Part shown: positions 1 through 13,540 of the stretch, one piece after another
How positions within the stretch are numbered: position 1 is the stretch's first letter
Layout of the letters: every line of letters starts with the position of its first letter
Origin: Nitrospirota bacterium
GTDB lineage: Bacteria; Nitrospirota; Thermodesulfovibrionia; SZUA-242
Direction of reading: 5' to 3'
Assembly (NCBI GenBank): GCA_016212095.1
Contig: JACRHH010000017.1
Location: 1-63,447 of the forward strand
Length of the DNA stretch: 63,447 nucleotides
Notes under the pieces: generated by a model
Databases searched by the model: none
What the model saw: only the letters and a program-made list of their open reading frames with translations
Told to the model about the DNA's origin: nothing
Program-made: the position numbers and the translations under genes

Positions 1-549
1 GAACTCGCTTCAATGAGGCCGGGGCCGGAGCCCCGGAAATACAGACTGATCAGGCCTTTGACTCAAATCCCAGGTTTAGCTTCAATGAGGCCGGGGCCGG
101 AGCCCCGGAAATACACCTATGGATCGGGCAGGTAAGGTAGCCGATATGGTGCTTCAATGAGGCCGGGGCCGGAGCCCCGGAAATACCCGGGTGGCCTCGA
201 TGATGGAGAAGGGCCACGAGAACTCGCTTCAATGAGGCCGGGGCCGGAGCCCCGGAAATACTGGTGGCCGGATGTCCTATACATGAAGCCTCACACAGCT
301 TCAATGAGGCCGGGGCCGAAGCCCCGGAAATACATTTGGCTGTGCTGATGCAATAGTCGCGCCATTATTTAGCTTCAATGAGGCCGGGGCCGAAGCCCCG
401 GAAATACGATAAACTCGATAAACTTTCCACCGACCTATATTGAGCTTCAATGAGGCCGGGGCCGAAGCCCCGGAAATACTCGAACAGTGGGCGGCTCATG
501 GCCGCTTCAAGTCGCTTCAATGAGGCCGGGGCCGAAGCCCCGGAAATAC
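1..549 (-). CRISPR. Type I-G CRISPR array, 8 repeats, truncated at window start
   Basis: Eight 36-bp repeats start at 7, 79, 151, 226, 298, 372, 444 and 514. The seven spacers are 36, 36, 39, 36, 38, 36 and 34 bp, and a 6-base piece of another spacer lies at 1-6. On the minus strand each repeat ends in CATTGAAGC, a common 3' handle, so transcription should run from the cas2 side (549) toward 1. The repeat centre folds as CCGGGGC-loop-GCCCCGG. The four leader-proximal repeats have loop TTCG and the four distal ones TCCG; no other base differs. The array runs off the window. Confidence 0.98.
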
Positions 550-785: not shown

Positions 786-1076
786 TTACACGATCATTGT
801 CTCGCGCTTGATCGGCTCGAACGCCTTTCCAAGGCTTGTCACCTTCGGCTTCACCATGTCAGCCGGGCCGATGTCCATTATCAGCACGTGATCCTGATCG
901 TGCTTTATCGATTCCGACAACGCCTCCATCATCTCAGCGCGCCGCCGTTGCGAAAGCCTGCACTGGAAAACCGAAAGCTGAAGCCATTCGCCGTAGCCCT
1001 TCATCAGCCGGTAAAACCTGCGCCAGCGCCGTTGATCCGAAATATCGTAAGTCACCAGATAAAAATGTTCTTCCAT
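786..1076 (-). CDS. cas2: CRISPR-associated endonuclease Cas2
   Basis: Cas2 is the non-catalytic bridge of the Cas1-Cas2 spacer integrase. The 96-residue product has the expected size and the beta-alpha-beta start (FYLVTYDIS) with the conserved Asp, followed by an Arg-rich helix. An upstream in-frame ATG at 1094 exists, but the start at 1076 follows a GAGGT ribosome site at good spacing and leaves only 4 bp after the cas4-cas1 stop. The gene is last in the adaptation operon and next to the leader. Confidence 0.95.
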   Translation of the reverse strand: MEEHFYLVTYDISDQRRWRRFYRLMKGYGEWLQLSVFQCRLSQRRRAEMMEALSESIKHDQDHVLIMDIGPADMVKPKVTSLGKAFEPIKRETMIV

Positions 1077-1080
1077 GCTG

Positions 1081-2832
1081 TTACCTCGTGACAAAATTCG
1101 GATAATCGTTGATCTCGCCCATCAGGAACCGCCCAAGCAGCCGCGCCTGAACCTCGAAAAGCCGCCGGTAGCTGACCTTGTAGCCGAAAATCGGGTGCGT
1201 GATCTCTTGGTCGAGCCTGCGCTCGAACGTTGCGATGAAACGCTTGCGAGCCGTGTCTTTCAGCGCCACGCCGCCTGCCGCCGAGACGAAATCATCCGGC
1301 TCCACCTCGCCGTTGTTGATTGCCGTGAGCACCGACGAATCTGCCACGAGCGGGCGGAACGGCTCCATCATGTCGAGCGCGAGCGCCGGGCGGCCATAGC
1401 GCGGCTGATGATAAAACCCGCGATACGGATCGAAGCCCACAGCCGAAAGCGTGACGTGCCACGAGCGCGCAAGCAGCGTGTAGGCAAACGACAGAAGCGC
1501 GTTCACCGGATCTTTCGGCGGACGGCGGTTGCGCTCGTTGAAGTCGAAGCTGAAACCGCCGTTTCCGTTGCCGGCGTTGTTATCGTCGCGCTTCAGGAGG
1601 CCGCCGAAGATTCCGAAATATCGAGCCGCCGCCTGCCCCTCCACGCCCATAAGCTCCGGTATGCCTTTCGCGCGCCCCGCCTCATCGATGCCGTGGCGAA
1701 ATTCCGCGAGCGTTTCGTCCGGGCAGGTTTCATCACGCCCGTTATCGCGCCAGTTACGCCGGGCGAGGGTGCGGCAGTTGCGTATTTTCGCCTGAATGAG
1801 TCCGCACGCAATTTGAAGACATGCCGCGTCGTTGAAACTTGCGCGATACTGCGCCGCGCGAAGCTCCACGTTTTTGTGGCCCAGGCCGGTTGTGTGCCCC
1901 ATGAACCAGCCTCCCAGCGAATGCCACGACACCGGAATGCCGCGCCGCATCAGTTCATGAAGCGCGGGCGCGGTTACAGATGCGTTTCCCATTATTGCAA
2001 GCTGCGAAATGTCGTTGATGCGGGCGGTTGTCTCCTTCGCGTCGTCAACCCAAACTTCGAGCGTGTCGCCGTTTTTCCGTATGCTTGCGCGCGCCGCCTG
2101 AACATAGAGCGGAAGCGATTCGTCGCGGGAAACCGCCAAGGGGCGAACTTCGCCCTTATCGAAACGGATGAAATTGAGCTCGTCCGGCAGGCAGATGCCC
2201 ACAAGCGAGCAGTGCGGACAGCGCGGGCTGTCTTCGAGCGGTTCCGGAATGCCGCCGCCATCGGCCATGCGTCTGATGCCTTCAAGCGCTGAATTGGTCA
2301 TGGCGCGAAGTTCGGCGTCGAAATCGATGTTCACGCGCTCGCGCGAGGCAACGTAGTAGATCACGCCGCTGCCGCATTGATAGCCGTGCTCCTCAAGCAG
2401 CAAGCCCTGTATGCATAACTGCACGCGCTCCGGATCGTAAGCGCCCTTCTCCACATGCGGACGCTTGCCGTGCTTGTAATCAACCGGCGATACGCATCCG
2501 CCCTCCCCTTCGAGCAGATCGATGACGGCTATCGCGCCGAGCGCGTCGGATGAAAGCGTGATCGAACGCGCGTGAATGCGGGTTTCGCCGGTAACATCGC
2601 CGGAGATTGCGCCGGAGATTGCGCCGGGTTCGGGCAGCGCGCCGCCCTTGCGGTTGACGCGCCGGTGGTTGAACCGGCCCTCCACGGTGTCAACAGATTC
2701 GGCCCATTCGCCCTGCACCCATTCGAGATAGGCAAGACGCGGGCAGTAGACGTATTCGTTTACCATGCGAGCCGGGATGAGAGGTGTTTCGGATTCGGCG
2801 GATGCCGCCGGTTCCGGGGCTTGAACGCTCAT
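1081..2832 (-). CDS. cas4-cas1: Cas4-Cas1 fusion (spacer acquisition)
   Basis: This 583-residue fusion is typical of type I-G. The N-terminal Cas4 half has the four iron-sulfur cysteines (C30 in YCPRLAY; C205, C208 and C214 in RCPHCSLVGIC) and RecB-like nuclease residues near D105 and D118/K120. The Cas1 half starts near residue 240, with likely metal ligands E398, H475 (GFYHQ) and E490 (DMMEPFRP). Cas4 selects and trims PAM-bearing prespacers, and Cas1 integrates them. The start at 2832 has GGAGG upstream; longer reading to 2967 lacks a site. Residues 71-80 contain a small 12-bp tandem duplication (GAIS repeated). Confidence 0.97.
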   Translation of the reverse strand: MSVQAPEPAASAESETPLIPARMVNEYVYCPRLAYLEWVQGEWAESVDTVEGRFNHRRVNRKGGALPEPGAISGAISGDVTGETRIHARSITLSSDALGAIAVIDLLEGEGGCVSPVDYKHGKRPHVEKGAYDPERVQLCIQGLLLEEHGYQCGSGVIYYVASRERVNIDFDAELRAMTNSALEGIRRMADGGGIPEPLEDSPRCPHCSLVGICLPDELNFIRFDKGEVRPLAVSRDESLPLYVQAARASIRKNGDTLEVWVDDAKETTARINDISQLAIMGNASVTAPALHELMRRGIPVSWHSLGGWFMGHTTGLGHKNVELRAAQYRASFNDAACLQIACGLIQAKIRNCRTLARRNWRDNGRDETCPDETLAEFRHGIDEAGRAKGIPELMGVEGQAAARYFGIFGGLLKRDDNNAGNGNGGFSFDFNERNRRPPKDPVNALLSFAYTLLARSWHVTLSAVGFDPYRGFYHQPRYGRPALALDMMEPFRPLVADSSVLTAINNGEVEPDDFVSAAGGVALKDTARKRFIATFERRLDQEITHPIFGYKVSYRRLFEVQARLLGRFLMGEINDYPNFVTR

Positions 2833-2981: not shown

Positions 2982-3263
2982 ATGATAAAGACGTTTAAAG
3001 ACAGGCACGCACAGGAGTTATACCTGACACGCAAATCGAGATTCTTTCCGCCTGAGATAGCCATTCGGGCGGCGCGCAAAATGGAATATCTCGACCTGGC
3101 GACTAATTCGGACGACTTGAAGGTTCCGCCGGGCAACCGCCTTCATGCGCTGGAACGGGATCGCAACGGTCAGTACTCCATTTCTATCAATGACCAGTGG
3201 CGTATCTGTTTTCTGTTCATTGAAGGCGATGCATATGACGTCGAAATCACAGACTATCACTGA
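2982..3263 (+). CDS. higB: HigB-type toxin (RelE superfamily mRNA interferase)
   Basis: The 93-residue product matches HigB toxins throughout: start MIKTFKDRHAQELY, the central ARRKMEYLDLA helix, the PPGNRLHALE segment and the C-terminal QWRICFLF and VEITDYH strands. HigB cleaves mRNA on the ribosome. The toxin precedes the antitoxin, the usual order for HigBA, and its TGA overlaps an ATG. There is no ribosome-binding site and the promoter places the transcript start at the ATG, so this may be a leaderless message. It reads opposite to the cas genes on both sides. Confidence 0.93.
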   Translation: MIKTFKDRHAQELYLTRKSRFFPPEIAIRAARKMEYLDLATNSDDLKVPPGNRLHALERDRNGQYSISINDQWRICFLFIEGDAYDVEITDYH

Positions 3264-3277
3264 TGCGAGGTAAGATC

Positions 3278-3589
3278 ATGAGCATTCCGAACACAATAAA
3301 AAGACAGGCGCGGCCCACGCATCCCGGTGAAATGCTGCGGGAGGATTTCCTGCCAGATTTCAAGCTTACGGTATCCGGGCTCGCCATGGCTTTGGGAGTG
3401 TCCCGTCAGACGATTAACGAATTGGTGCATGAGCGCCGGGCGGTCAGTCCGGAAATGGCTATTCGACTGTCGAGACTGTTTGGCAACACGCCAGAATTCT
3501 GGTTGAATGCTCAACGGGCGGTTGATCTTTGGGACGCGAATCAGACCATAACCAACGTGGAGAAAATCACGCCGCTGAAGTTCGCCTGA
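3278..3589 (+). CDS. higA: HigA antitoxin, XRE-family HTH
   Basis: The 103-residue protein has the HigA signature RPTHPGEMLREDFLP followed by an XRE helix-turn-helix (LAMALGVSRQTINELVHERR) and the SRLFGNTPEFWLNAQ tail. It binds and neutralises HigB and represses its own promoter, probably at 2953-2968. I chose the ATG at 3278 because GAGGTAAGATC precedes it. An alternative ATG at 3263 overlaps the higB stop and adds five residues. Confidence 0.93.
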   Translation: MSIPNTIKRQARPTHPGEMLREDFLPDFKLTVSGLAMALGVSRQTINELVHERRAVSPEMAIRLSRLFGNTPEFWLNAQRAVDLWDANQTITNVEKITPLKFA

Positions 3590-3689: not shown

Positions 3690-3959
3690 ATGTTATTGCA
3701 GACCGATTTACGCCGCCGTATAACTCTTCCGCCAACGACCGGAATCAAGCCCGGTGACGCGCTCGATCTGGAAGTGTTGGAGGACGGACGGATTCTTCTC
3801 ATTCCCGTGGAGCCGGTTCCGCGCCATCAGCTCTGGGCCTGGACAGCCGAATGCAAGCAGGCCATAACCGCATCCCTTGCGGATGCCCGCCCTTCAACGG
3901 TTGTCGAGACGGAAGAACAGGCCGACAAGACAGCCAAAAGGTGGGCGGGTGAGGATTGA
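3690..3959 (+). CDS. AbrB/MazE-type antitoxin
   Basis: This 89-residue protein opens with a swapped-hairpin AbrB segment (LRRRITLPPTTGIKPGDALDLEVLEDGRILLIPV), the DNA-binding fold of MazE/SpoVT/AbrB antitoxins. Its C-terminal third is charged and probably wraps the toxin. The ATG at 3690 is preceded by AGGAGG with 8-nt spacing; a longer reading from 3621 would run through the promoter. It overlaps the downstream toxin gene by 11 bp, which fits translational coupling of an antitoxin-toxin pair. Confidence 0.85.
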   Translation: MLLQTDLRRRITLPPTTGIKPGDALDLEVLEDGRILLIPVEPVPRHQLWAWTAECKQAITASLADARPSTVVETEEQADKTAKRWAGED

Positions 3960-4248
3960 AATCAGACCCGCGTTCGACGAAGCCGTCATGGTTGCCGAAA
4001 AGCCTGTTCGACAGGCGGCGGCCAAGATGCTTCGGCTTCTGTCCGGGCTCGACATCGGCCAGCTTTGGACTCACCCCGGCCTGAACTTTGAGAAACTGCA
4101 CGGGATGATCGAGCCAACAACCGGCCTACAACTTTACTCCCTTCGCGTCACCAGAAGCGCCCGCGCGATAACCTGCCTGCTCAACGGGCCGACAATTGTG
4201 CTTGTCAGCCTGCATTCACAGCACGACAAGGCGTATAAAAAACCGTAA
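3949..4248 (+). CDS. RelE/ParE-superfamily toxin
   Basis: The 99-residue product has the RelE-type C terminus: an arginine-rich strand (LYSLRVTRSARAITCLLNG) followed by TIVLVSLHSQHDKAY. This resembles RelE/YafQ toxins that cleave translated mRNA. The start is GTG at 3949, inside the antitoxin gene. I cannot tell which RelE subfamily it belongs to. A ParE-like gyrase poison is less likely given the C-terminal motif. Confidence 0.82.
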   Translation: MRIEIRPAFDEAVMVAEKPVRQAAAKMLRLLSGLDIGQLWTHPGLNFEKLHGMIEPTTGLQLYSLRVTRSARAITCLLNGPTIVLVSLHSQHDKAYKKP

Positions 4249-4313: not shown

Positions 4314-4526
4314 TCATATCCTGTCGTTCCTGCTCCGCAGAATGTCCTCGGCGAACGCCCCGTTGCATTTTTTGAGAGCATGCCGTGTCCTGATGTGGCC
4401 CGTCGTCGCGGTTTCATCACGCAGCGGTTTTCTATCTTTCAATGAAAGGATGAGGTTGTACACCACCAATAAATCCGAGGCAGTCAATTCGTTCAGTTCT
4501 TTTATTGCGTAATCCGTTACCTTCAT
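4314..4526 (-). CDS. Small conserved-looking protein, possible orphan antitoxin
   Basis: A 70-residue protein starting MKVTDYAIKELNELTASDLL, mostly helical and charged, with GGAGGAG seven bases before its ATG. I do not recognise a named family. Size and composition resemble small antitoxin or addiction-module components, and toxin-antitoxin genes surround it, but no toxin partner follows on this strand. Its ATG overlaps by ATGA the stop of a 34-codon open frame that begins in the csb2-like repeat copy C, so it may once have been coupled to that frame. Confidence 0.5.
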   Translation of the reverse strand: MKVTDYAIKELNELTASDLLVVYNLILSLKDRKPLRDETATTGHIRTRHALKKCNGAFAEDILRSRNDRI

Positions 4527-4592
4527 AAAACCGCTCCTCCATCAACAATGGATAGCAAACCCATTGTTACTATAGCAAAACCTGCTGCCGTT

Positions 4593-4619
4593 GCGGCGAA
4601 GAGGCCGAGGCCGAAGTGG
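4593..4619 (-). repeat. csb2 3'-end repeat, copy C
   Basis: Twenty-one bases (4593-4613) are identical to the end of csb2 at 6723-6743, then one mismatch, then AGTGG. On the minus strand it encodes H-F-G-L-G-L-F-A-A, the csb2 tail with Tyr changed to Phe. It begins 39 bp beyond the stop of the metallopeptidase gene. This is the most diverged of the three copies. Confidence 0.85.
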
Positions 4620-4658
4620 GTCATTCACGACCGGGAAAGTGCCTGAAGAAAACTGCAA

Positions 4659-5507
4659 TCAATTTCGCGCCTCGATCCGGTTGGCGGCTGTCAGAATGGC
4701 GTACACGCTTGCCTGTTCGACCGCCTCCTTCGTGATGACCGCCTTCAGATAATTGGCCGATTCCGTTTCCAGTCCGGCCCGCAGACAAACAATGTGCGCC
4801 GCCGCCTCGGCCTCAAGCTCTTTTGCCGCCGCCGACAGATTGTCTTGTGATCGATCCGGCCACGCAAATTTTGGCCCTTCCCCCAAATGGCCGCAATAGA
4901 TGTGCGCCAACTCATGCGCCAGTGTTGCCAGACTTGAAGGTTCGTCCAGATTCTTATTGATTCTCACGCGCCATCTGACGTCTTTCTCGCCGGAAACGGC
5001 TTCACTTTGCGCCATGCGCGCAGCCGTGCCGGCAAGGTTGCTTCCGTAATCGCAGGATTCAACCCGCACGCAGAGCTTTCCCGCAGCCTTGACGGTGCGT
5101 GCCAAGCTGGTGGGCTTCACCATGCCATATGCGGAGAATGGATCTTCCAGTTCGAACGGCAAAGGCTTGCCCGATGTATCCGATTCCTCGTAGACAAAGA
5201 GCACGGGGCCGAACGGCCACAGAATGATTATCGGAATAGCGTCCGGGCTCACTGTTCTACCGACTTTCGCCCATTGGTATCGGCTTGCCACAAGCCGCGC
5301 GCCCGGTCTTTGCGCATGGATGAGCATGGCATTGTAAGCCGAGAACCGTTGCAGACGCTTCGTGAAAGCCAGAAAATCACGGAAACCGGCGTCCGCATTC
5401 GGTTTCAACTCCAGCGCCTTTCGAAAAAGCCGATCCACCGCCTCGGCGTCGTTGTCGAAAATTGAATCGCGTGGAATAGTTGCGCTGTCAGTCGGTTGCG
5501 TTACCAT
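4659..5507 (-). CDS. ArdC-like / ImmA-IrrE-like zinc metallopeptidase
   Basis: The 282-residue protein has two parts. Residues 40-110 resemble the ArdC N-terminal domain (FLAFTKRLQRFSAYNAMLI, QWAKVGRTV), found in antirestriction and plasmid-transfer proteins. Residues 195-240 carry a zinc peptidase motif, AHELAHIYCGH (H198, E199, H202), with a downstream Glu-rich helix that could supply the third ligand. ImmA-type peptidases cleave phage-type repressors; ArdC proteins counter restriction. The ATG at 5507 follows AAAGGT. It lies between repeat copies B and C inside the cas locus. Its substrate is unknown. Confidence 0.75.
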   Translation of the reverse strand: MVTQPTDSATIPRDSIFDNDAEAVDRLFRKALELKPNADAGFRDFLAFTKRLQRFSAYNAMLIHAQRPGARLVASRYQWAKVGRTVSPDAIPIIILWPFGPVLFVYEESDTSGKPLPFELEDPFSAYGMVKPTSLARTVKAAGKLCVRVESCDYGSNLAGTAARMAQSEAVSGEKDVRWRVRINKNLDEPSSLATLAHELAHIYCGHLGEGPKFAWPDRSQDNLSAAAKELEAEAAAHIVCLRAGLETESANYLKAVITKEAVEQASVYAILTAANRIEARN

Positions 5508-5539
5508 GGCTTACCTTTCATGAACATTGGGCCGTGTCA

Positions 5540-5568
5540 CATGGCGGCGAAGAGGCCGAGGCCGTAGT
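5540..5568 (-). repeat. csb2 3'-end repeat, copy B
   Basis: Twenty-nine bases are identical to 6719-6747 at the csb2 terminus. On the minus strand they read Y-G-L-G-L-F-A-A-M and then TGA, so even the in-frame stop context survives. The copy lies about 9 bp after the stop of mobile mystery protein B and just before the metallopeptidase gene. Confidence 0.93.
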
Positions 5569-5576
5569 TGAGCGAA

Positions 5577-6164
5577 TCACGAGCGGACGAACTCCAGAAG
5601 GGGCCAGCAATCGTGCCGGTCGGCGGCTTGCAATGCCTCGATATACCGGTGGCGACAGTTGCCGACATCGACAAGGCTGCCGCTTCCCCACGAAAACCGG
5701 GGACGCCGCAACACCTGCACAAGCAAGAGATCGGTCATAGTTCGCGCATGACGGCCGTTGCCATTAGCGAAAAGATGTATGGATACCAACCGGTGATGAA
5801 ATCGGGCCGCAATCTCGTCGGGCGCGTAAGATTCGTATTGAATCCAAGCGGTTGCATCGTTGCAAAGCTGCCGCAGTTCAACCGGAACCTGCCACCAGGC
5901 AACGCCGATGTTCTTGTCGCTGCGCCGGAATCGCCCGGCCCATCGCCACACACTGCCGAACATTCGCTTATGCAGACCGCAAATGAAACGCTCGCTTAAA
6001 ATATCCTTGCGTTTCCGGCCAAAAGCCCAAGCCTCGCCATCGACGATATTGTCCTGCTCCCATCGGTTGAGTTCCGCCCGCGTGGTAATGTGGCTGAGAA
6101 GCAGCCCCGCTGTTTCATCCGGATCGAGCGGGGTTGCGTCGGCTGGATATTCGAAGATCGTCAC
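5577..6164 (-). CDS. Mobile mystery protein B (Fic/DOC family)
   Basis: The 195-residue protein has the Fic active-site loop HLFANGNGRHAR (130-141), a close variant of HPFxxGNGRxxR. The His activates the target hydroxyl and the Asn/Arg residues bind nucleotide phosphates. Upstream FGSVWRWAGRFR is also typical of Fic/DOC. It overlaps the preceding HTH gene by 4 bp (ATGA). Together they form the mobile mystery A/B pair, a family pair described in mobilisation contexts and in the CRISPR region of Geobacter sulfurreducens. The likely activity is AMPylation or a related transfer on an unknown host target. Confidence 0.9.
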   Translation of the reverse strand: MTIFEYPADATPLDPDETAGLLLSHITTRAELNRWEQDNIVDGEAWAFGRKRKDILSERFICGLHKRMFGSVWRWAGRFRRSDKNIGVAWWQVPVELRQLCNDATAWIQYESYAPDEIAARFHHRLVSIHLFANGNGRHARTMTDLLLVQVLRRPRFSWGSGSLVDVGNCRHRYIEALQAADRHDCWPLLEFVRS

Positions 6165-6628
6165 GATTCATTCCATAGTTCTTTGGGCATGGTTCGCGCC
6201 AGTTCATCAGCCGCGTCATCAATCGCGCGTTGCAGCTCATCGCCGGGAAGGTGCTGATTTTCAAGCATCATTGTGTGGGAGGCGCGCGCCAGCCGAACCC
6301 GCGCCACCTTCTCAGCCTGATTTTTCACAGTTTCATCGAGGCTTGCGCGCGGCACAATGGCGTAGACAAATACGCAATCCAGCGCCTCCGCCGCCTGACG
6401 CATGGTTTTGATGGTGAGAGAACCGGAACATTCGTCCCTTTCCAGCACGGTAATCCGTGGCGGACTGACGCCAAGACGCGCGGCGAACTGTACGCCCGAC
6501 ATCCCAAGCGCCTCCCGCACAGCCCGAATCCATCCCTTCGGCGGGGCGGGGATGGACTGAAGACCGGAAAGGCGTGAGAGGGTTTGACCAAGCTGTTCAA
6601 GTGCTAGACGCTTTCGGTTTGGAGCCAT
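6161..6628 (-). CDS. Mobile mystery protein A (HTH regulator/antitoxin)
   Basis: The 155-residue protein has an XRE-like helix-turn-helix at about 40-75 (VREALGMSGVQFAARLGVSPPRITVLERDE) and a helical C-terminal half. It matches mobile mystery protein A, always paired with the Fic partner encoded downstream. It probably neutralises the Fic protein and represses the pair. The preceding 85 bp are very AT-rich with two dyads. The ribosome site is weak. The gene directly follows csb2 in the same orientation, so csb2 readthrough may also transcribe it. Confidence 0.87.
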   Translation of the reverse strand: MAPNRKRLALEQLGQTLSRLSGLQSIPAPPKGWIRAVREALGMSGVQFAARLGVSPPRITVLERDECSGSLTIKTMRQAAEALDCVFVYAIVPRASLDETVKNQAEKVARVRLARASHTMMLENQHLPGDELQRAIDDAADELARTMPKELWNES

Positions 6629-6645
6629 AATTAACCCGTGTGCTT

Positions 6646-6694
6646 ATGTTAGGAGATAATTATTAACATAAAGAATAATATATTCCGGAATATA
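6646..6694. promoter_or_regulatory. Palindromic operator region of mobile mystery A/B
   Basis: The AT-rich gap between csb2 and the HTH gene holds a perfect 16-bp palindrome TATATTCCGGAATATA (6679-6694) and a second dyad ATGTTA (6646-6651) / TAACAT (6664-6669). Both lie upstream of the HTH start and are natural operator candidates. A weak promoter (TTGCAT, 18 bp, TATTAT) brackets the first palindrome. Confidence 0.55.
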
Positions 6695-6712
6695 ATTAAT
6701 GCAATGGTTCAT

Positions 6713-8362
6713 TTATGGCATGGCGGCGAAGAGGCCGAGGCCGTAGTGGCGCCCACCGCCAAGGCATATTGGCCCATTGATATGTACCGGACGGCTACTC
6801 TCGTTCCCCCACTCTATCTTGACGTGATAGCGTGGAAAACGTTTGAGATGATCCGGTACGCCATAACGGTCAGCTAATTCGGTTCCTCTCCAATAGCCGA
6901 CTTTCCGCCATTCGATTTCGGCGCAATCCGCCATGACCTTGGAGAAACCCGCTTGAAGAATCGCTTTGCGAAGCAGACCATCAATACGCTTATCAAGGTG
7001 GTTTAACAGCCGTTTTTGTTCCTCCGAACTGGTTACGGCATTCAGCCGCCGCCGATAGTGTGCAGGATCGTCATAACCAGGAAGAACAACCGGCGTCACC
7101 GTAGCCCAGGTTGCCGATGAACAAATATACGATTTAACAACATTGTCGGAAGCTGGTAACAGGGACAGTATGGCGACAGGATTGCTTGCACGTTCCTCGC
7201 CTTCATCCTGTCTGCTATGTTCCGGTTCCAGCGATTGCCCGGAAAGTGTTCTGCGCGCCCATGCGATTTCATCTTGGCAGCCGTCATCAAAAGCGGTGAG
7301 CATTACCCGGCGGACATTGCCAACCACCGGTGATTGTCCTTCGCCTCGTGATTCAATGCTTGGCAAGGGCAGATAGGCAAAGCGTTTATTGCCAACAGAG
7401 ATATGTTTCCCGGTATTTTGCGATTCCCCATGTCCAAGAATGAAGTTACTAATACGCTTCTCTTGTAAATGTGTACGTTCAGCCGCACAAGCGGCAGCGT
7501 GTCGGGTCATCCCGGCAACGGTTAACGCTTGTCGAACCGTATCAAATGGGCGAAAGCCGCTGGCGTCAGGCCTTAACAGGGAGAATGCGGCAATGGGACG
7601 AATTTGCGGATCAGTTGCTCGTCGGTATTCAATTTTCTTGTAAACCGACAACAGCGGCGGTGGCGTAAGCATGTTTCCCTCCATTCGTTTCAGAAATCCT
7701 TCGTGACGCGCCATGAGATCGTCCAGCGTTCCTTGTATTGGCACATGCAAACCATCGCCGGAAGCCTCGGACGCAGGCAACCACCGTTCGCCGGGCAATG
7801 CCGCAACCTCTTCTTCGGTCATGATTGAACCGTCGCCTACGGCCATATCAACGCCCCAGCCGAGAGAAGTGATGCTGTGAGCAATCGCCGTAAGTACTTC
7901 GATCTGGCCGCGATGTTCGTCGGCAAGTGGAACCGGCAATGCCCACAAATAATGGATCGTATCTCCCCCGATTAAATGGGTAGGGCGTACTGTCTTCATT
8001 GTGCGGTGCGTTGCCTGGCTGGCATCGCCGGAATTGCTGTAGTTCCCATGACTCCATGCTTTTGCAACAATATCCATAACGTTATTGGGCACAGACAGGC
8101 AGTATCCGGGAAGTTTACGGCTTGGCTGAACACATCCAGGAGCAACGATGATCGGTGGAGATTCCGCAGATGAACGCTCAAGCAACGTTAGAGAACCGCG
8201 TGCGGAAAAATTAATGCTTCCATTGCCAAGACGTGCTGCAGAAGCAACCAGCGTCTGATAAACCCGGAGAGGAGACGGCGGCCATTCCGGCGCGCCGCCA
8301 TCCCCACAGCCGTGAAACCGGGGGTCGCAAAAGCGGATCGAGAGGCTAAAATACACGCTCAT
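6713..8362 (-). CDS. csb2: Type I-G Csb2 (Cas5-Cas6 fusion)
   Basis: The 549-residue protein is of the GSU0054/Csb2 family. The N-terminal Cas5-like RAMP starts with IRFCDPRFHG and has the family segment EWPPSPLRVYQTLVASA. The C terminus ends in the glycine-rich stretch GGGRHYGLGLFAAMP, typical of the Cas6-like RNA-binding end. In type I-G this subunit both processes pre-crRNA and caps the 5' handle in Cascade. The gene lies 9 bp downstream of csb1. Its final 29 bases recur at 5540-5568 and, less perfectly, at 4593-4619. Confidence 0.93.
   Translation of the reverse strand: MSVYFSLSIRFCDPRFHGCGDGGAPEWPPSPLRVYQTLVASAARLGNGSINFSARGSLTLLERSSAESPPIIVAPGCVQPSRKLPGYCLSVPNNVMDIVAKAWSHGNYSNSGDASQATHRTMKTVRPTHLIGGDTIHYLWALPVPLADEHRGQIEVLTAIAHSITSLGWGVDMAVGDGSIMTEEEVAALPGERWLPASEASGDGLHVPIQGTLDDLMARHEGFLKRMEGNMLTPPPLLSVYKKIEYRRATDPQIRPIAAFSLLRPDASGFRPFDTVRQALTVAGMTRHAAACAAERTHLQEKRISNFILGHGESQNTGKHISVGNKRFAYLPLPSIESRGEGQSPVVGNVRRVMLTAFDDGCQDEIAWARRTLSGQSLEPEHSRQDEGEERASNPVAILSLLPASDNVVKSYICSSATWATVTPVVLPGYDDPAHYRRRLNAVTSSEEQKRLLNHLDKRIDGLLRKAILQAGFSKVMADCAEIEWRKVGYWRGTELADRYGVPDHLKRFPRYHVKIEWGNESSRPVHINGPICLGGGRHYGLGLFAAMP
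6719..6747 (-). repeat. csb2 3'-end repeat, copy A (functional csb2 terminus)
   Basis: This is the in-gene copy: codons for Y-G-L-G-L-F-A-A-M, then Pro and TAA. It is identical over 29 bases to copy B. The AT-rich mobile mystery promoter begins immediately beyond it. Confidence 0.93.
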
Positions 8363-8371
8363 GACAGCCTC

Positions 8372-9496
8372 CTAATTGTCTTTCTTTTTTAGCTTTCCGC
8401 TCGTTTCCTTCTTTTCTAGATCTTTTTTTGCTAACTCTTGGTCGAACTCCACCTCCCGATCAGGGCGAGTCTGGAAATCAATGGTGCGATCCGGGTTAAT
8501 GCCGAAGGCTTTGGCCGCAGCCGTTGCGTATGCAATGGCTTCTTCGTGCGTAACGAAGGCATCATCTCTCCGACCGTCGCTAAAAACAATCTTGAATTCC
8601 CTCGACTTGTCTGGGTCAAGAACAAGATTGCAGCCTTGGCGCAGGTATCCGGAAGGAGGAATGGTGAATGCAGTCAGTGCGATTCCTAGAATGTAACGGC
8701 GTAGGGCAAGCGTCTTCGTTTTATCATCTCCGGCAGTAAGCAATCGCAATGCTGCAAGATGAAGTGTGGCATCACGACGAACGCCGCCAGCTGCGATTAC
8801 ACCGCCGTGGGTCGCCGAAGCAAGCGCGTTTGCGAATCCTCGTACTGAGAACGGGTGCTTACTTTTAACTTTCCCTTCCGCATCCCGTAAATCTTCCGGC
8901 TCCTGCAGAAGTTCCTCCGCTGCATAATTCACCGGCGGCGCATACACGGCTGATCGTGTCAACTCGCGGACATTGTAGGCACGGATTTTCGAGTCGATCA
9001 GTCTGGGCAGTTTCGCTTGGGTTTTTCGCGAATCCCAGACTCCAAACACCAACGAAGTCGGCGCAATCTTAGCCAACGGCTCAGCATTACCATTCATGAC
9101 AGAGTTGAATGCAGCTTCCAGATCATCTTGCAACACTGAACAGCGAACGATAGCGTCTCCCGCCCGGTGACCCGCTTCAAGCAGGTTTACCACCTTGCTA
9201 CCCGCTTTCACCACGATCTGAGGCACGAGTCCGGCATATTCTTTTTTCATTAGCAAAGGTTCGATCCTGTTTGCCTGGGAACCGACGCTATCGACAAGGC
9301 AGACATTGGCGCTGTCAGGGAATTTGTCGATGTTGTAGCCGCCCTTGAAGGTTTTGTCTTCGCTTGCGGCAAAAGTTGCCGGAAACAAAACACCGTCGTG
9401 ACCTTCCACCGGCATCAGGTGTTCACGTAGCACCAGAGCAGCAGGGCCGGAGTCCTTTAACCATGTGTCAAAATTCTTTAGGGTGTCGTCGTTCAT
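8372..9496 (-). CDS. csb1: Type I-G Csb1 (Cas7 backbone subunit)
   Basis: The 374-residue protein is of the GSU0053/Csb1 family, the Cas7-like RAMP that polymerises along crRNA in the I-G Cascade. Family features include LREHLMPVEGHDGVLFPATFA near the N terminus, the VCLVDSVGSQANRIEP segment near residue 65, and a central SVRGFANALASATHGGVIAAGG. The C terminus is lysine- and glutamate-rich (KKDLEKKETSGKLKKKDN). It sits 2 bp after csb3 in one transcript with cas3, csb3 and csb2. Confidence 0.93.
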   Translation of the reverse strand: MNDDTLKNFDTWLKDSGPAALVLREHLMPVEGHDGVLFPATFAASEDKTFKGGYNIDKFPDSANVCLVDSVGSQANRIEPLLMKKEYAGLVPQIVVKAGSKVVNLLEAGHRAGDAIVRCSVLQDDLEAAFNSVMNGNAEPLAKIAPTSLVFGVWDSRKTQAKLPRLIDSKIRAYNVRELTRSAVYAPPVNYAAEELLQEPEDLRDAEGKVKSKHPFSVRGFANALASATHGGVIAAGGVRRDATLHLAALRLLTAGDDKTKTLALRRYILGIALTAFTIPPSGYLRQGCNLVLDPDKSREFKIVFSDGRRDDAFVTHEEAIAYATAAAKAFGINPDRTIDFQTRPDREVEFDQELAKKDLEKKETSGKLKKKDN

Positions 9497-9498
9497 TA

Positions 9499-10332
9499 TT
9501 ATCTCCTTTGTATAGGGGTTGCAGGGTTAAAAGCCTTGTGCTTCTTTTGACTTGTGCGGAAAGCGTTCATAAAGCGAAATCCGTAGATGTTACCGACAAG
9601 ACCGGAAACCGCCACGGGGACAACCATGACAGGCAAGGGCATATTCCATATGAAGTAATCGAAAACCCGTGGCATGTCGGTAGGTTTGGGGCGGCATCTC
9701 TGCAAGCCAACGAGACTCATAGCCTCAACGACAGGATAAGCAACAGTAGTCAGCTTTAAGGAGTCCGTTGAGAAGCCAACATCAATAGACCAAGCACTGG
9801 CACCGCGCCGGGCATCAAAGTAGAACGGCTCCCGCTTTTTCGGCTTCGAACATCGCTTGCTGTGAGCAGTTTTAGAACTACGAGCATTCGTATCGAATAC
9901 CACCGTTCTCTGATTGAGTGGGTTATCGTACTTTGGATCGATAGCATTGCACATCGCCAAGAAAATCTTGCGCTCATTCATGGAGCCCGCCCATGTTTTT
10001 AATGATTTATCTTGCCACCAGTCCAAACCGAGTGAAACAGGGGAAGTAATTACGAATGGCGGCGACTCCCTCTCGATTTCATCTGAATCGTCATCGTCGT
10101 CATCCGCGTCAGGATCGCCAGCAAGACAGATAGCTTGTGCCGCAGCTAAGAGAGCGGGTAATAATGCCGTGTCTTCCTCGGTTCTAATACAGAAGATTCC
10201 GCCCTCAAACCACCCCTCCGCCCCTTTCCAGAGCCTGTCGGCCAACTCAAGCAGCCCGCAACAGGCGAAAAACTGTCCAGGGTTGGTTGGATCAACACGA
10301 ACGCGGATTGTCGATTCCGGGCTTCTGCTCAT
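9499..10332 (-). CDS. csb3: Type I-G Csb3 (Cas8u2-like subunit)
   Basis: The 277-residue protein begins with VRVDPTNPGQFFACCGLLELADRLW, characteristic of the Csb3/Csx14-type family (GSU0052-like) found in type I-U/I-G loci between cas3 and csb1. It is taken to be the small Cas8-like subunit of the interference complex. An acidic stretch (DPDADDDDDDSDEIERE, about residues 73-89) forms a predicted disordered loop. It overlaps cas3 by 4 bp (ATGA). Cas8 function here comes from family and position, not from visible catalytic residues. Confidence 0.85.
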   Translation of the reverse strand: MSRSPESTIRVRVDPTNPGQFFACCGLLELADRLWKGAEGWFEGGIFCIRTEEDTALLPALLAAAQAICLAGDPDADDDDDDSDEIERESPPFVITSPVSLGLDWWQDKSLKTWAGSMNERKIFLAMCNAIDPKYDNPLNQRTVVFDTNARSSKTAHSKRCSKPKKREPFYFDARRGASAWSIDVGFSTDSLKLTTVAYPVVEAMSLVGLQRCRPKPTDMPRVFDYFIWNMPLPVMVVPVAVSGLVGNIYGFRFMNAFRTSQKKHKAFNPATPIQRR

Positions 10333-13013
10333 AGGTCACCTCCCTGCATTGGCGTTTCACTTGGTCTGTCGAAATCGGCGTCATTGCCCGTCTGCGACGC
10401 CATGATATCGGCGGCGCGCACCAGCGATTCCAGATACGCGAGCCCCCAACGGCCATATTTGCGCTGCAATAAAGCAAAACGCCGAGGAACCTCACAGGCA
10501 ATTCTGCTTGCAGACTCTTCCGCCCGTTCGAGGTCAAATGCCTCCTGATCTGAAAAATGAGGCCTTGCCCTGCCATGATGCGCCGCTATCAGATGCAGGA
10601 CGAGATCCTTAACATCCGGAGCCAAAGCAAGAAATTCCGGCTGACTGGTCACATCGATCAACGATCCGAATTCATGGCGATAATTGGACAAAGATAGCGG
10701 CTTCATTCCGATGCCGGATTTGGCGAGTATGCTCCGTGGATCATCGGGGTTGTAGCCGTGATTGCCGATGGAGCGCTGCCATGTCAGGCGATCCTTACCG
10801 GGGTCATGCCAGTGGGCGGCGAAAATAACCGCAGAAGCTTCCGGCTCTTTCAGGTTGAGTTTCGTAACAAGTTTTCCTGCAAAATCCTCGGCTGATTGAA
10901 GATGAACGGACAACTCCTGTTTCACCCGTGCCGTTCGTGAGCCATCGTCATCGGCAGAGCGGGGCCGAACATACCAATGCCAGTACCGGCGGCTTGACAT
11001 ATCGGCTTCATCGTCACTCTCGGTTTCGACATCAAGCTTGACATCGATTGTTCTAACCAGTCGCATTCCTTTGGGTTTATCCTGTGCATTCCAAACCCGG
11101 CGACGTCGTGGATTGTTCTTCTCGTCCGTCCATTCATCGGCAATATCGTGTCTTTCGTCCGTAGTCTCGTTGCCGTCGAGCATTCCCTTATTCAGCCCTC
11201 TAGCCACCGGCGGCAGAAGAACCGTGCGGTCGGCAAGATTTACCAACGGTTGCTTTAGCTTGTTTCGTTCAACCAGTTTCGTTAATGAGAAGACTTCCAC
11301 TTTACCGTCAGAGTCGATGAGCCACGCGGCTTGATCAGTGTGTCGTTTTGCGATCTTCTCCAACTCATCGAACACCCGCTTCGTCTGGTCGCGCAATAAT
11401 TCATGCGGCTTAAGTGGGTAGTCTTCAAGTAGGTCTTCGGGCGGGTACGTCTCCAATAAAACAGGGGTATTAATCCTGCTGACCTCCTCACGCCATGCGA
11501 CATAGGTCACGGGAAGTTCCCACTCGGCAATGCCATGCAGCCAATCAGCCACAGGTGGCCGTCCGGGTAGCTTCTGGCGCACCGAGGTCAGCGCCCAAGC
11601 ATCAAAAAGAATGTCGGTTGCCGGAAGAATGACAGGTGGAGGTGTAAAGGCGGCTTGCCGGTCGGCAGCGGGTATCGTTGCTAATGCAGCCGGACTCGCA
11701 TCAAAACGCATATCATCCTCGCGTTTCTGAAGCTGTCCTAATAGCGATAGCGTCTGAACGCAGGCTTGGTCGTATGACGAAGGCTTACTGCTCTTTTTCG
11801 ATTCCGCGTCCAACTTGCGATAAACAATATCGATTTTTGCATCGCCGTCACCGAAACGATTTACACGCCCAAAGCGCTGTATCATGCTGTCGAGAGGTGT
11901 CAAATCGCAGACAAGATGATCCGCCGAGATGTTGACGCCGACTTCACCGGCTGATGTACAGACAAGATAAACCGTCCCTTGCTGTCGTATCGCCTCGGAA
12001 TTCCGCACAAAACGCGCAAAAACAGCATTCATTTTTGCCAGTTTGTCACGTTCCCATCCGCGCAATGTGCCGGTAAGCATTTCAACATTGTCCGCCGATA
12101 CTGTCTTGCTAAGAGCGTCGGCAACCTTTTTCACATCATCAATCAAGCGGAGAAATACAAGAATTGCCTTGCCGCTGTCTTTGTATTCTTTGGCAAGTTG
12201 AATCACCTTATCCGCAATTTTGTCTTCCTGATGGCATAGCAGCCATTTCTTAGCTTCGATTCGCTTCTGAACCTCAGCGTGTCTCCGGTCTTCTTCGGTA
12301 AGCAGGGAATCGTCATCGTTTGAGCCAGAGGAGCGAGACGTTGCCGTCAGTTCCATAACGCTAAATTTCATGAACTCGTGGCAACGCTCCTGCTCCTTTT
12401 CAATGGATGATACAAGCGTTTGGAAGGCAGGTTCCAAATGGGCTTCATCATGAACCAGCAAAGTGTCCTGACCAAGGAATCCGGCATGAAGTGGGCGGGA
12501 TTTGAAACCGCATCCGTACCCGGAGAACAACAACCGGCTGCCGATCATGTCCACAGTGCCGATGATTATGGCTGGCCTGGCCGGGTCATCCCTCCATTCG
12601 GCATTATCCGCAAACTGGCCACGCAACGTGCTGATCGACACGAGAACCGGGTTGTTTCGAGTCTGAAGAGACCGCAATGCATCGGCAATATGCAGGAGTT
12701 CCGGTTTTGCAAGCGATTCACGCAATCTTCCGGCTTCATCAGTGGACTGATCAACAACGGTTCTTCGGTTCACGACATAAGCAAGCCTTCGCGGAAAATC
12801 CGCTACAGTTCCGCTCCGAACATGATGAGCCAAGGCGATAAGCCAAATGGCCATAATTGACGTTTTCCCAAGCCCGGTGGGAACGGGGCATGACTTTCTG
12901 TCCTTTCTCATGAGAAATTCATTGAACAACTTCTCCTGCCATGGGAATGGCCTATGTCCGGTGAGCCAGTAAAATTCTTTTGAAAAATTGAAATCGAGAA
13001 CCATTTCATCCAT
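10329..13013 (-). CDS. cas3: Cas3 helicase-nuclease with C-terminal HD domain
   Basis: The 894-residue protein has an SF2 helicase first: Walker A PTGLGKT (45-51), DEAH box (189-192) and motif VI QRFGRVNRFGDG (379-390). The HD nuclease is at the C terminus: HWHDPGK (H736, D737), H780 in YRHEF, and AAHHGRARPH near 811. The reversed order, helicase then HD, is typical of I-U/I-G Cas3 and unlike I-E or I-C. Cascade recruits it to degrade target DNA. It is the first gene of the interference operon cas3-csb3-csb1-csb2. Confidence 0.96.
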   Translation of the reverse strand: MDEMVLDFNFSKEFYWLTGHRPFPWQEKLFNEFLMRKDRKSCPVPTGLGKTSIMAIWLIALAHHVRSGTVADFPRRLAYVVNRRTVVDQSTDEAGRLRESLAKPELLHIADALRSLQTRNNPVLVSISTLRGQFADNAEWRDDPARPAIIIGTVDMIGSRLLFSGYGCGFKSRPLHAGFLGQDTLLVHDEAHLEPAFQTLVSSIEKEQERCHEFMKFSVMELTATSRSSGSNDDDSLLTEEDRRHAEVQKRIEAKKWLLCHQEDKIADKVIQLAKEYKDSGKAILVFLRLIDDVKKVADALSKTVSADNVEMLTGTLRGWERDKLAKMNAVFARFVRNSEAIRQQGTVYLVCTSAGEVGVNISADHLVCDLTPLDSMIQRFGRVNRFGDGDAKIDIVYRKLDAESKKSSKPSSYDQACVQTLSLLGQLQKREDDMRFDASPAALATIPAADRQAAFTPPPVILPATDILFDAWALTSVRQKLPGRPPVADWLHGIAEWELPVTYVAWREEVSRINTPVLLETYPPEDLLEDYPLKPHELLRDQTKRVFDELEKIAKRHTDQAAWLIDSDGKVEVFSLTKLVERNKLKQPLVNLADRTVLLPPVARGLNKGMLDGNETTDERHDIADEWTDEKNNPRRRRVWNAQDKPKGMRLVRTIDVKLDVETESDDEADMSSRRYWHWYVRPRSADDDGSRTARVKQELSVHLQSAEDFAGKLVTKLNLKEPEASAVIFAAHWHDPGKDRLTWQRSIGNHGYNPDDPRSILAKSGIGMKPLSLSNYRHEFGSLIDVTSQPEFLALAPDVKDLVLHLIAAHHGRARPHFSDQEAFDLERAEESASRIACEVPRRFALLQRKYGRWGLAYLESLVRAADIMASQTGNDADFDRPSETPMQGGDL

Positions 13014-13463: not shown

Positions 13464-13540
13464 GTCAACTGGCCACGACATGTCAATTGGCCACGACATG
13501 TCAATTGGCCACGACATGTCAATTGGCCATGACATGTCAG
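13464..13540. repeat. Four 18-bp tandem repeats (iteron-like) upstream of the WYL remnant
   Basis: Units start at 13464, 13482, 13500 and 13518, each GTCAATTGGCCACGACAT or a one-base variant, followed by a partial fifth (GTCAG). Each unit contains TGTC-N10-GACA, and junctions create ACATGT. The block is 100 bp upstream of the WYL-like gene and reads into cas3. It could be a multi-copy operator for that regulator or a left-over terminus of an IS21-type element. Confidence 0.8.

Follow-up and report, generated by a model that had tools for sequence, protein, structure and literature searches.

What process would set copies of the 3' end of a CRISPR-associated gene at several points within its own operon? 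The question is raised by a 63,447-nucleotide (nt) contig of a Nitrospirota bacterium (Thermodesulfovibrionia, SZUA-242; GenBank assembly GCA_016212095.1, contig JACRHH010000017.1), referred to here in its full length as the window, which harbors a type I-G CRISPR-Cas locus with cas3, Cas8g, Csb1, Csb2, a Cas4-Cas1 fusion, cas2 and an array all present. The last codons of csb2 recur there as two orphan copies among the genes that separate csb2 from the cas4-cas1 fusion gene (cas4-1). A sequence-only reading of this DNA had proposed that two cargo cassettes integrated in succession at the csb2 3' end, each rebuilding it much as genomic islands do at tRNA genes. From a comparison of type I-G loci, we arrive at a different answer: the orphan tails are probably scars left where effector modules were replaced in situ, the breakpoints tending to fall in the conserved tail codons of csb2. 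This reading is favored because the tails vary in length, most lie nearer to another csb2 than to their own, their clade often disagrees with that of the resident gene, intact predecessors exist in sister genomes, and effector and adaptation modules have incongruent histories.

Three csb2 tails in the window

Csb2 proteins fall into five clades, X (that of the window), X', Y, W and Z, each monophyletic with 99-100% support in the csb2 tree. The window csb2, encoding a Cas5-Cas6 fusion of the type X effector (6713..8362, minus strand; Pfam Cas_GSU0054, 1.4e-178; NCBIfam TIGR02165, Csb2), clusters with those of loci L027, L028, L029, L065 and L109 at 97-100% support and ends in tail A (6719..6747, minus), the final codons YGLGLFAAM. 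Tail B (5540..5568, minus), an orphan type X tail that also reads YGLGLFAAM, lies 9 nt past the stop codon of mmyB, the gene for mobile mystery protein B, and matches A at 29 of 29 positions. Tail C (4593..4616, minus), an orphan type Y tail that includes HFGLGLF, has 21 contiguous nt in common with A and B (4593-4613) and matches the resident tail at 26 of 27 nt. GLGLFAA is encoded by all three alike, in csb2 orientation. The 29-base identity, the 21-base recurrence and this common peptide had all been noticed in the sequence-only reading, and sequence comparison together with a whole-genome search (2,972,444 bases, 39 contigs) bore them out: an 18-nt core, allowed up to two mismatches, matched exactly A, B and C, with no match on the other strand. 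A chance origin of the repeats is excluded. The only other exact repeat of at least 20 nt in the window outside the CRISPR array belongs to an 18-nt tandem repeat, GGCCACGACATGTCAATT, present in about three copies upstream of cas3 (13470-13529), which might serve the cas operon as an operator.

Much of the identity among A, B and C reflects codon-level conservation: the independent csb2 of L065 (55% protein identity) has 21 nt that agree exactly with A and B, but matches at only 23 of 29 positions over the full length. Tail C had been taken for a more decayed copy of A; it carries instead the HFGLGLF of another csb2 clade, and the csb2 tails of L038 and L066 match it exactly over 23 nt. The window csb2 is nested in X, and its Cas4-Cas1, whose closest homologs (62-67%) are found in Gamma- and Betaproteobacteria, lies nearest to Y and W loci of those groups, L038 and L066 being such Y loci. 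From these sequence affinities, we read tail C as the probable stump of a csb2 of type Y, formerly the neighbor of this adaptation module. The earlier idea that the oldest insertion lies farthest from csb2 stands in part: the order of layers may hold, but C derives from a different csb2 and not from an aged copy of A. Tail C also lies inside a 33-codon open frame, MTHFGLGLFAATAAGFAIVTMGLLSIVDGGAVL (4523-4624, minus). The stop of this frame and the start of the following small one overlap, possibly by coincidence.

Stumps and exchanged modules across type I-G loci

Eighty type I-G loci were collected by a genome-wide scan with a Cas4-Cas1 alignment, and more were added from the window's phylum, the Nitrospiraceae and a plasmid; 65 of these, the window included, have a gap between csb2 and cas4-1 and were used for gap analysis. 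The sample comprises one genome per species, and many loci come from metagenome-assembled genomes. The Nitrospiraceae loci are akin to one another, such that counts among them are not independent events, and the trees were built by a quick method with modest support at many forks, although the csb2 clades and rejection tests are clear. A second tail in L101, probably part of its own csb2 broken by a frameshift, was left out of the count, and protein matches within an over-long open frame in L047 were dropped as artifacts. In Z loci, csb2 precedes cas3. The commonest tail, that of the Y clade, is ALGFACHFGLGLF or ALGHSSHFGLGQF, and the X tail is GGGRFYGLGLF.

As the sequence-only reading had anticipated, csb2 tails occur at cargo junctions of other type I-G loci, and junctions recur at the csb2 3' end: 20 of the 65 gapped loci, from several phyla, contain a total of 23 orphan tails in sense orientation. 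A tail profile and a 27-nt comparison both detect such tails in the gaps in sense orientation and hardly any in antisense; 20 gap segments lay within five mismatches of 27 of a resident csb2 tail in sense orientation versus one in antisense. The tails range from 12 to about 97 residues. Among 17 convincing csb2 fragments recovered by a protein search of the gaps, 14 end no more than 8 residues short of the C-terminus; 10 begin within 28 residues of it, and others reach back approximately 40 to 100 residues. Several fragments lie within one gap in L035 and L039.

For 20 of the 23 tails, a csb2 from a different locus is nearer than the resident one; only window tails B and C (the latter a tie) and the tail of L149 depart from this. 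Thirteen loci combine a resident csb2 of type X, X', W or Z with a Y stump, and own tail and stump there differ at 10-19 of 27 positions where a comparable tail exists, the window excepted. The stump of L038, at least about 290 nt long, shares 80.3% identity with the resident csb2 of that locus and 86.6% with the csb2 of L066, a Ramlibacter locus of another genus. In all, 22 of the 23 stumps are of Y type, though X and W modules also end in csb2; either Y was the usual predecessor or the Y 3' end is retained more often.

Intact predecessors of such junctions are preserved in sister genomes. L107, in which a Y csb2 is followed by a segment labeled K6 and cas4-1, matches L142, where a Z effector is followed by tail, K1, tail, K6 and cas4-1, at 75% over 805 nt downstream of the tail. 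The stump and K1 of L136 correspond to an intact Y csb2 and K1 in L141 (82% over 511 nt). The stump and HicB gene of L028 find their counterpart behind an intact csb2 in L097, L143 and L147, with 79-81% identity to L143 or L147 over 430-530 nt. L065, which carries an X module, and L078, which carries a Z module, have Y stumps of one type, each with the same ORF6N cargo behind it (76% over 293 nt). In L041 (W) and L053 (Z), different effector modules lie between flanks that are 86-92% identical on both sides, with a WYL-type gene upstream and cargo, cas4-1, cas2 and array downstream. These two are Rhodocyclales-type loci with nearly identical Cas4-Cas1.

The phylogenies of the two modules agree with such exchange. 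When effector type is mapped onto the Cas4-Cas1 tree, 31 changes are needed to place the five types, compared with a shuffled mean of 32.3 and a minimum of 4, the number found on the csb2 tree; moreover, a single clade on the Cas4-Cas1 tree is rejected for X or Z (p 0.0002 and 0.00007). At this depth, therefore, effector modules have been exchanged almost freely relative to the adaptation module. Within the Nitrospiraceae, Cas4-Cas1 proteins are mostly 85-93% alike, yet all five effector types are present. Two signatures of in situ replacement are found, incongruent adaptation and effector trees on the one hand and, on the other, the same flanks around different modules, in L041 and L053 as well as the Nitrospiraceae set.

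Across 172 Nitrospiraceae genomes, the tail pattern occurs in type I-G loci, in two I-G loci split between contigs, in the remains of one such locus and, as a single copy, immediately beyond a CRISPR array. In five genomes of this family (G202, G204, G248, G287 and G290), the stump lies in a single-contig assembly. The copy past the array, L180:8047-8075 in G290, is a Y-type tail outside the cas operon followed by a palindrome like that after the L141 csb2. The decayed locus, L178 in G245, holds at approximately 8500-9530 an X-type cas3 fragment (58% to the window) and then a Y-type C-terminal csb2 fragment.

Proposed module replacement and the rival explanations

We propose that type I-G loci retain their adaptation module (cas4-1, cas2 and array) together with adjoining cargo, and that the upstream effector module (cas3, cas8, csb1 and csb2) is exchanged repeatedly in place. 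Exchange of modules, remains of departed csb2 genes, joins gathered at the csb2 3' end and cargo lodged between layers are evident from the loci compared; the role of homology, the sequence of the layers and a swap origin for B are inferred. The downstream breakpoint falls at or near the csb2 3' end, where the Gly-rich, Cas6-like tail codons form the DNA most alike between effector modules; this stretch stays nearly identical in far-diverged csb2 genes as well, the window and L065 having 21 nt in common. Where a join is out of register, the incoming module would bring its csb2 entire, and 10 to 100 terminal codons of the former csb2 would be left as a scar. Cargo, mostly toxin-antitoxin and small defense-type genes, may travel with the modules or come later, and would become trapped between layers. 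Short homology supplied by the tail codons might guide the joins or help in their repair, and old scars could be used again for further exchange; the K1-plus-tail junction followed by differing cargo in L142, L146 and L149 fits such re-use. In the window, C would be what is left of an older Y-type csb2 and B what is left of a former X-type csb2 near the present one; A is the end of the present gene.

Four observations weigh against this account. The start of many stumps lies no more than a few codons from HFGLG, a tighter left boundary than random joining would produce. Some of these edges represent one shared ancestral junction, as with K1 plus tail in L142, L146 and L149, and a preference for the site may also exist. 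The swap between L041 and L053 left no csb2 scar, the L053 join cutting an AlbA_2 gene instead; a scar is therefore not obligatory. No close relative of the window locus was found, the closest csb2 within its class being that of G388 at about 55%, and the before-and-after of this particular locus is accordingly unseen. Finally, B is identical to the resident tail at 29 of 29 positions, whereas the other X-type tails match it at 23 of 29 at most, the nearest being L065 with its 21 exact nt, and a local duplication fits this better than an independent csb2.

Such a duplication is the most serious competitor, confined to copy B: entry of mmyAB would have copied about 29 nt of the resident tail by template switching or short-homology repair, with C as an ordinary scar. 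The identity of B with the resident tail extends to the variable last codon, and both of its ends are sharp. Yet B lies at the kind of boundary also occupied by the 22 stumps of types other than the resident X, and an earlier X-type module from a near relative would yield the same sequence. Tail B may stem from a closely related X module since displaced, or it may have been copied as mmyAB came in, the pattern in other loci favoring the former and the perfect identity the latter; we regard duplication as a real possibility, though the less probable of the two.

Also conceivable, but doubtful in our estimation, is that csb2 tail-coding DNA serves as a preferred recombination site in lieu of a dedicated one, with effector modules and toxin-antitoxin cassettes swapped in the fashion of a cassette array and old tails acting as re-usable anchors.

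Site-specific integration of cargo at the csb2 3' end, with a recombinase supplied in trans and the tail rebuilt each time, as at tRNA islands or integron sites, appears unlikely. It would account for the 29-nt identity that brackets mmyAB, for the two tails, about 45 nt alike, around one MNT-HEPN cassette in L142, for the several stumps that begin sharply at HFGLG, and for the mobile, toxin-antitoxin type of the cargo. It is at odds, however, with stumps of no fixed length, most of which match a non-resident csb2, often of another clade, and for which sister genomes preserve intact predecessors, as well as with the many cargo junctions that lack a tail. No recombinase is encoded among the window cassette genes, in accord with the sequence-only reading, and mmyAB occurs in L184 without a csb2 tail, against the idea that the pair brings its own. 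A roaming attachment site is rejected, the tail in the 172 Nitrospiraceae genomes being confined to type I-G loci or their remains.

Least probable is that the tails are functional, as pseudo-repeats read by Cascade in the manner of CreTA or as a promoter or processing element kept for downstream genes: the window tail does resemble the CRISPR repeat (CGGCCTC and neighbors shared; z 4.2, and 4.7 for L066) and the differences of stumps from the nearest resident tail favor third codon positions (29 of 47), but a mean z of 0.73 across 54 loci puts the likeness of tail and repeat close to random, the third-position bias is present between resident csb2 genes as well (66 of 111) and expected if stumps are young, and no repeat hairpin or handle is retained. 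The 54-locus control also ruled out a CRISPR-repeat origin of the tails.

Neighboring genes and known systems

All cas genes of the window lie on the minus strand. In transcriptional order, cas3 (10329..13013; assigned by homology to X-type loci), cas8 (Cas8g2, GSU0052 family; 9499..10332) and csb1/cas7 (8372..9496) lead into csb2. Cassette 1 follows, with the genes for mobile mystery protein A, a helix-turn-helix (HTH) protein (6161..6628, minus; TIGR02612, 1.2e-60), and mobile mystery protein B, a Fic protein (5577..6164, minus; TIGR02613, 4.3e-88; Pfam Fic). On the Ti plasmid pTi_CFBP4442, the mmyAB pair adjoins a DUF3991/toprim gene, with no cas gene among those listed nearby. Cassette 2 (4659..5507, minus) encodes an M78, ImmA-IrrE-like metallopeptidase (Pfam Peptidase_M78, 1.7e-7); it had been called ArdC-like, a name returned by none of the family searches run. 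Between tail C and the neighboring gene pair lies a small open frame of 70 amino acids (4314..4526, minus), succeeded by two plus-strand toxin-antitoxin pairs, one MazE-like antitoxin plus RelE-like toxin (3690..4248) and one HigB-HigA (2982..3589). A pair homologous to that at 3690-4248 stands directly before cas4-1 in L084 (72.9% over 561 nt), which fits a cargo that stays with the adaptation module. The conserved adaptation module then begins with the cas4-cas1 fusion (1084..2832, minus; Pfam Cas_Cas1, 5.6e-89, and Cas_Cas4, 2.3e-16) and continues with cas2 (786..1064, minus) and an array of eight repeats (1..549, minus). Gap genes common to the sampled loci encode MNT-HEPN, HicB, ParE, Phd/YefM-like, Uma2, Schlafen AlbA_2 and ORF6N proteins, assigned to toxin-antitoxin or defense by family name only. 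No viral contigs with csb2 were found, and a sequence search found no solved structures.

Effector exchange has so far been inferred from trees and synteny, and a boundary stump constitutes a physical trace of it. Stumps allow single genomes to be read for past swaps, including the effector type that was lost, the order of events and breakpoints at base level. They also offer a reason why toxin-antitoxin genes abound between csb2 and cas4-1.

Each of the known systems that these loci recall is matched in part. Like CreTA and other toxin-antitoxin genes in cas operons, the type I-G gaps place toxin-antitoxin genes between cas genes, but here there is no CRISPR-like antitoxin RNA, and the source of the tail copies is csb2 coding sequence rather than repeats. 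As with integron cassette arrays, promoter-poor cassettes of toxin-antitoxin type are shuffled at a fixed place; however, the window gap has no integron integrase, and in place of one attC per boundary there are csb2 tails at one to three boundaries. With islands at tRNA 3' ends, the loci have in common direct repeats of a gene's 3' end that flank cargo and a target gene that is intact. They differ in lacking a linked integrase and a fixed core, an identical core of set length being seen for A and B alone and not across loci, and in that the displaced end usually belongs to another gene lineage.

The closest parallel is the in situ replacement of CRISPR-Cas effector modules beside a constant adaptation module, an account that takes in I-U, now I-G (Hudaiberdiev et al. 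2017, PMC5704561), which is said there to be shuffled to a lesser extent (PMC5704561; review PMC6452270). The review names cas6 and the adaptation genes as attractors for exchange (PMC6452270), an idea that stumps render testable. Stumps of csb2 are not described in either source as far as a term search shows ('remnant' is absent from PMC5704561), and an earlier sighting is possible. In those accounts as here, the adaptation module stays fixed and the effector is replaced in place, with synteny on both sides. Module exchange as such was thus already known; the element that appears new, judged against the parts of these sources consulted, is the csb2 scar, carried by about one third of the gapped type I-G loci, some of them in several layers with toxin-antitoxin cargo between.

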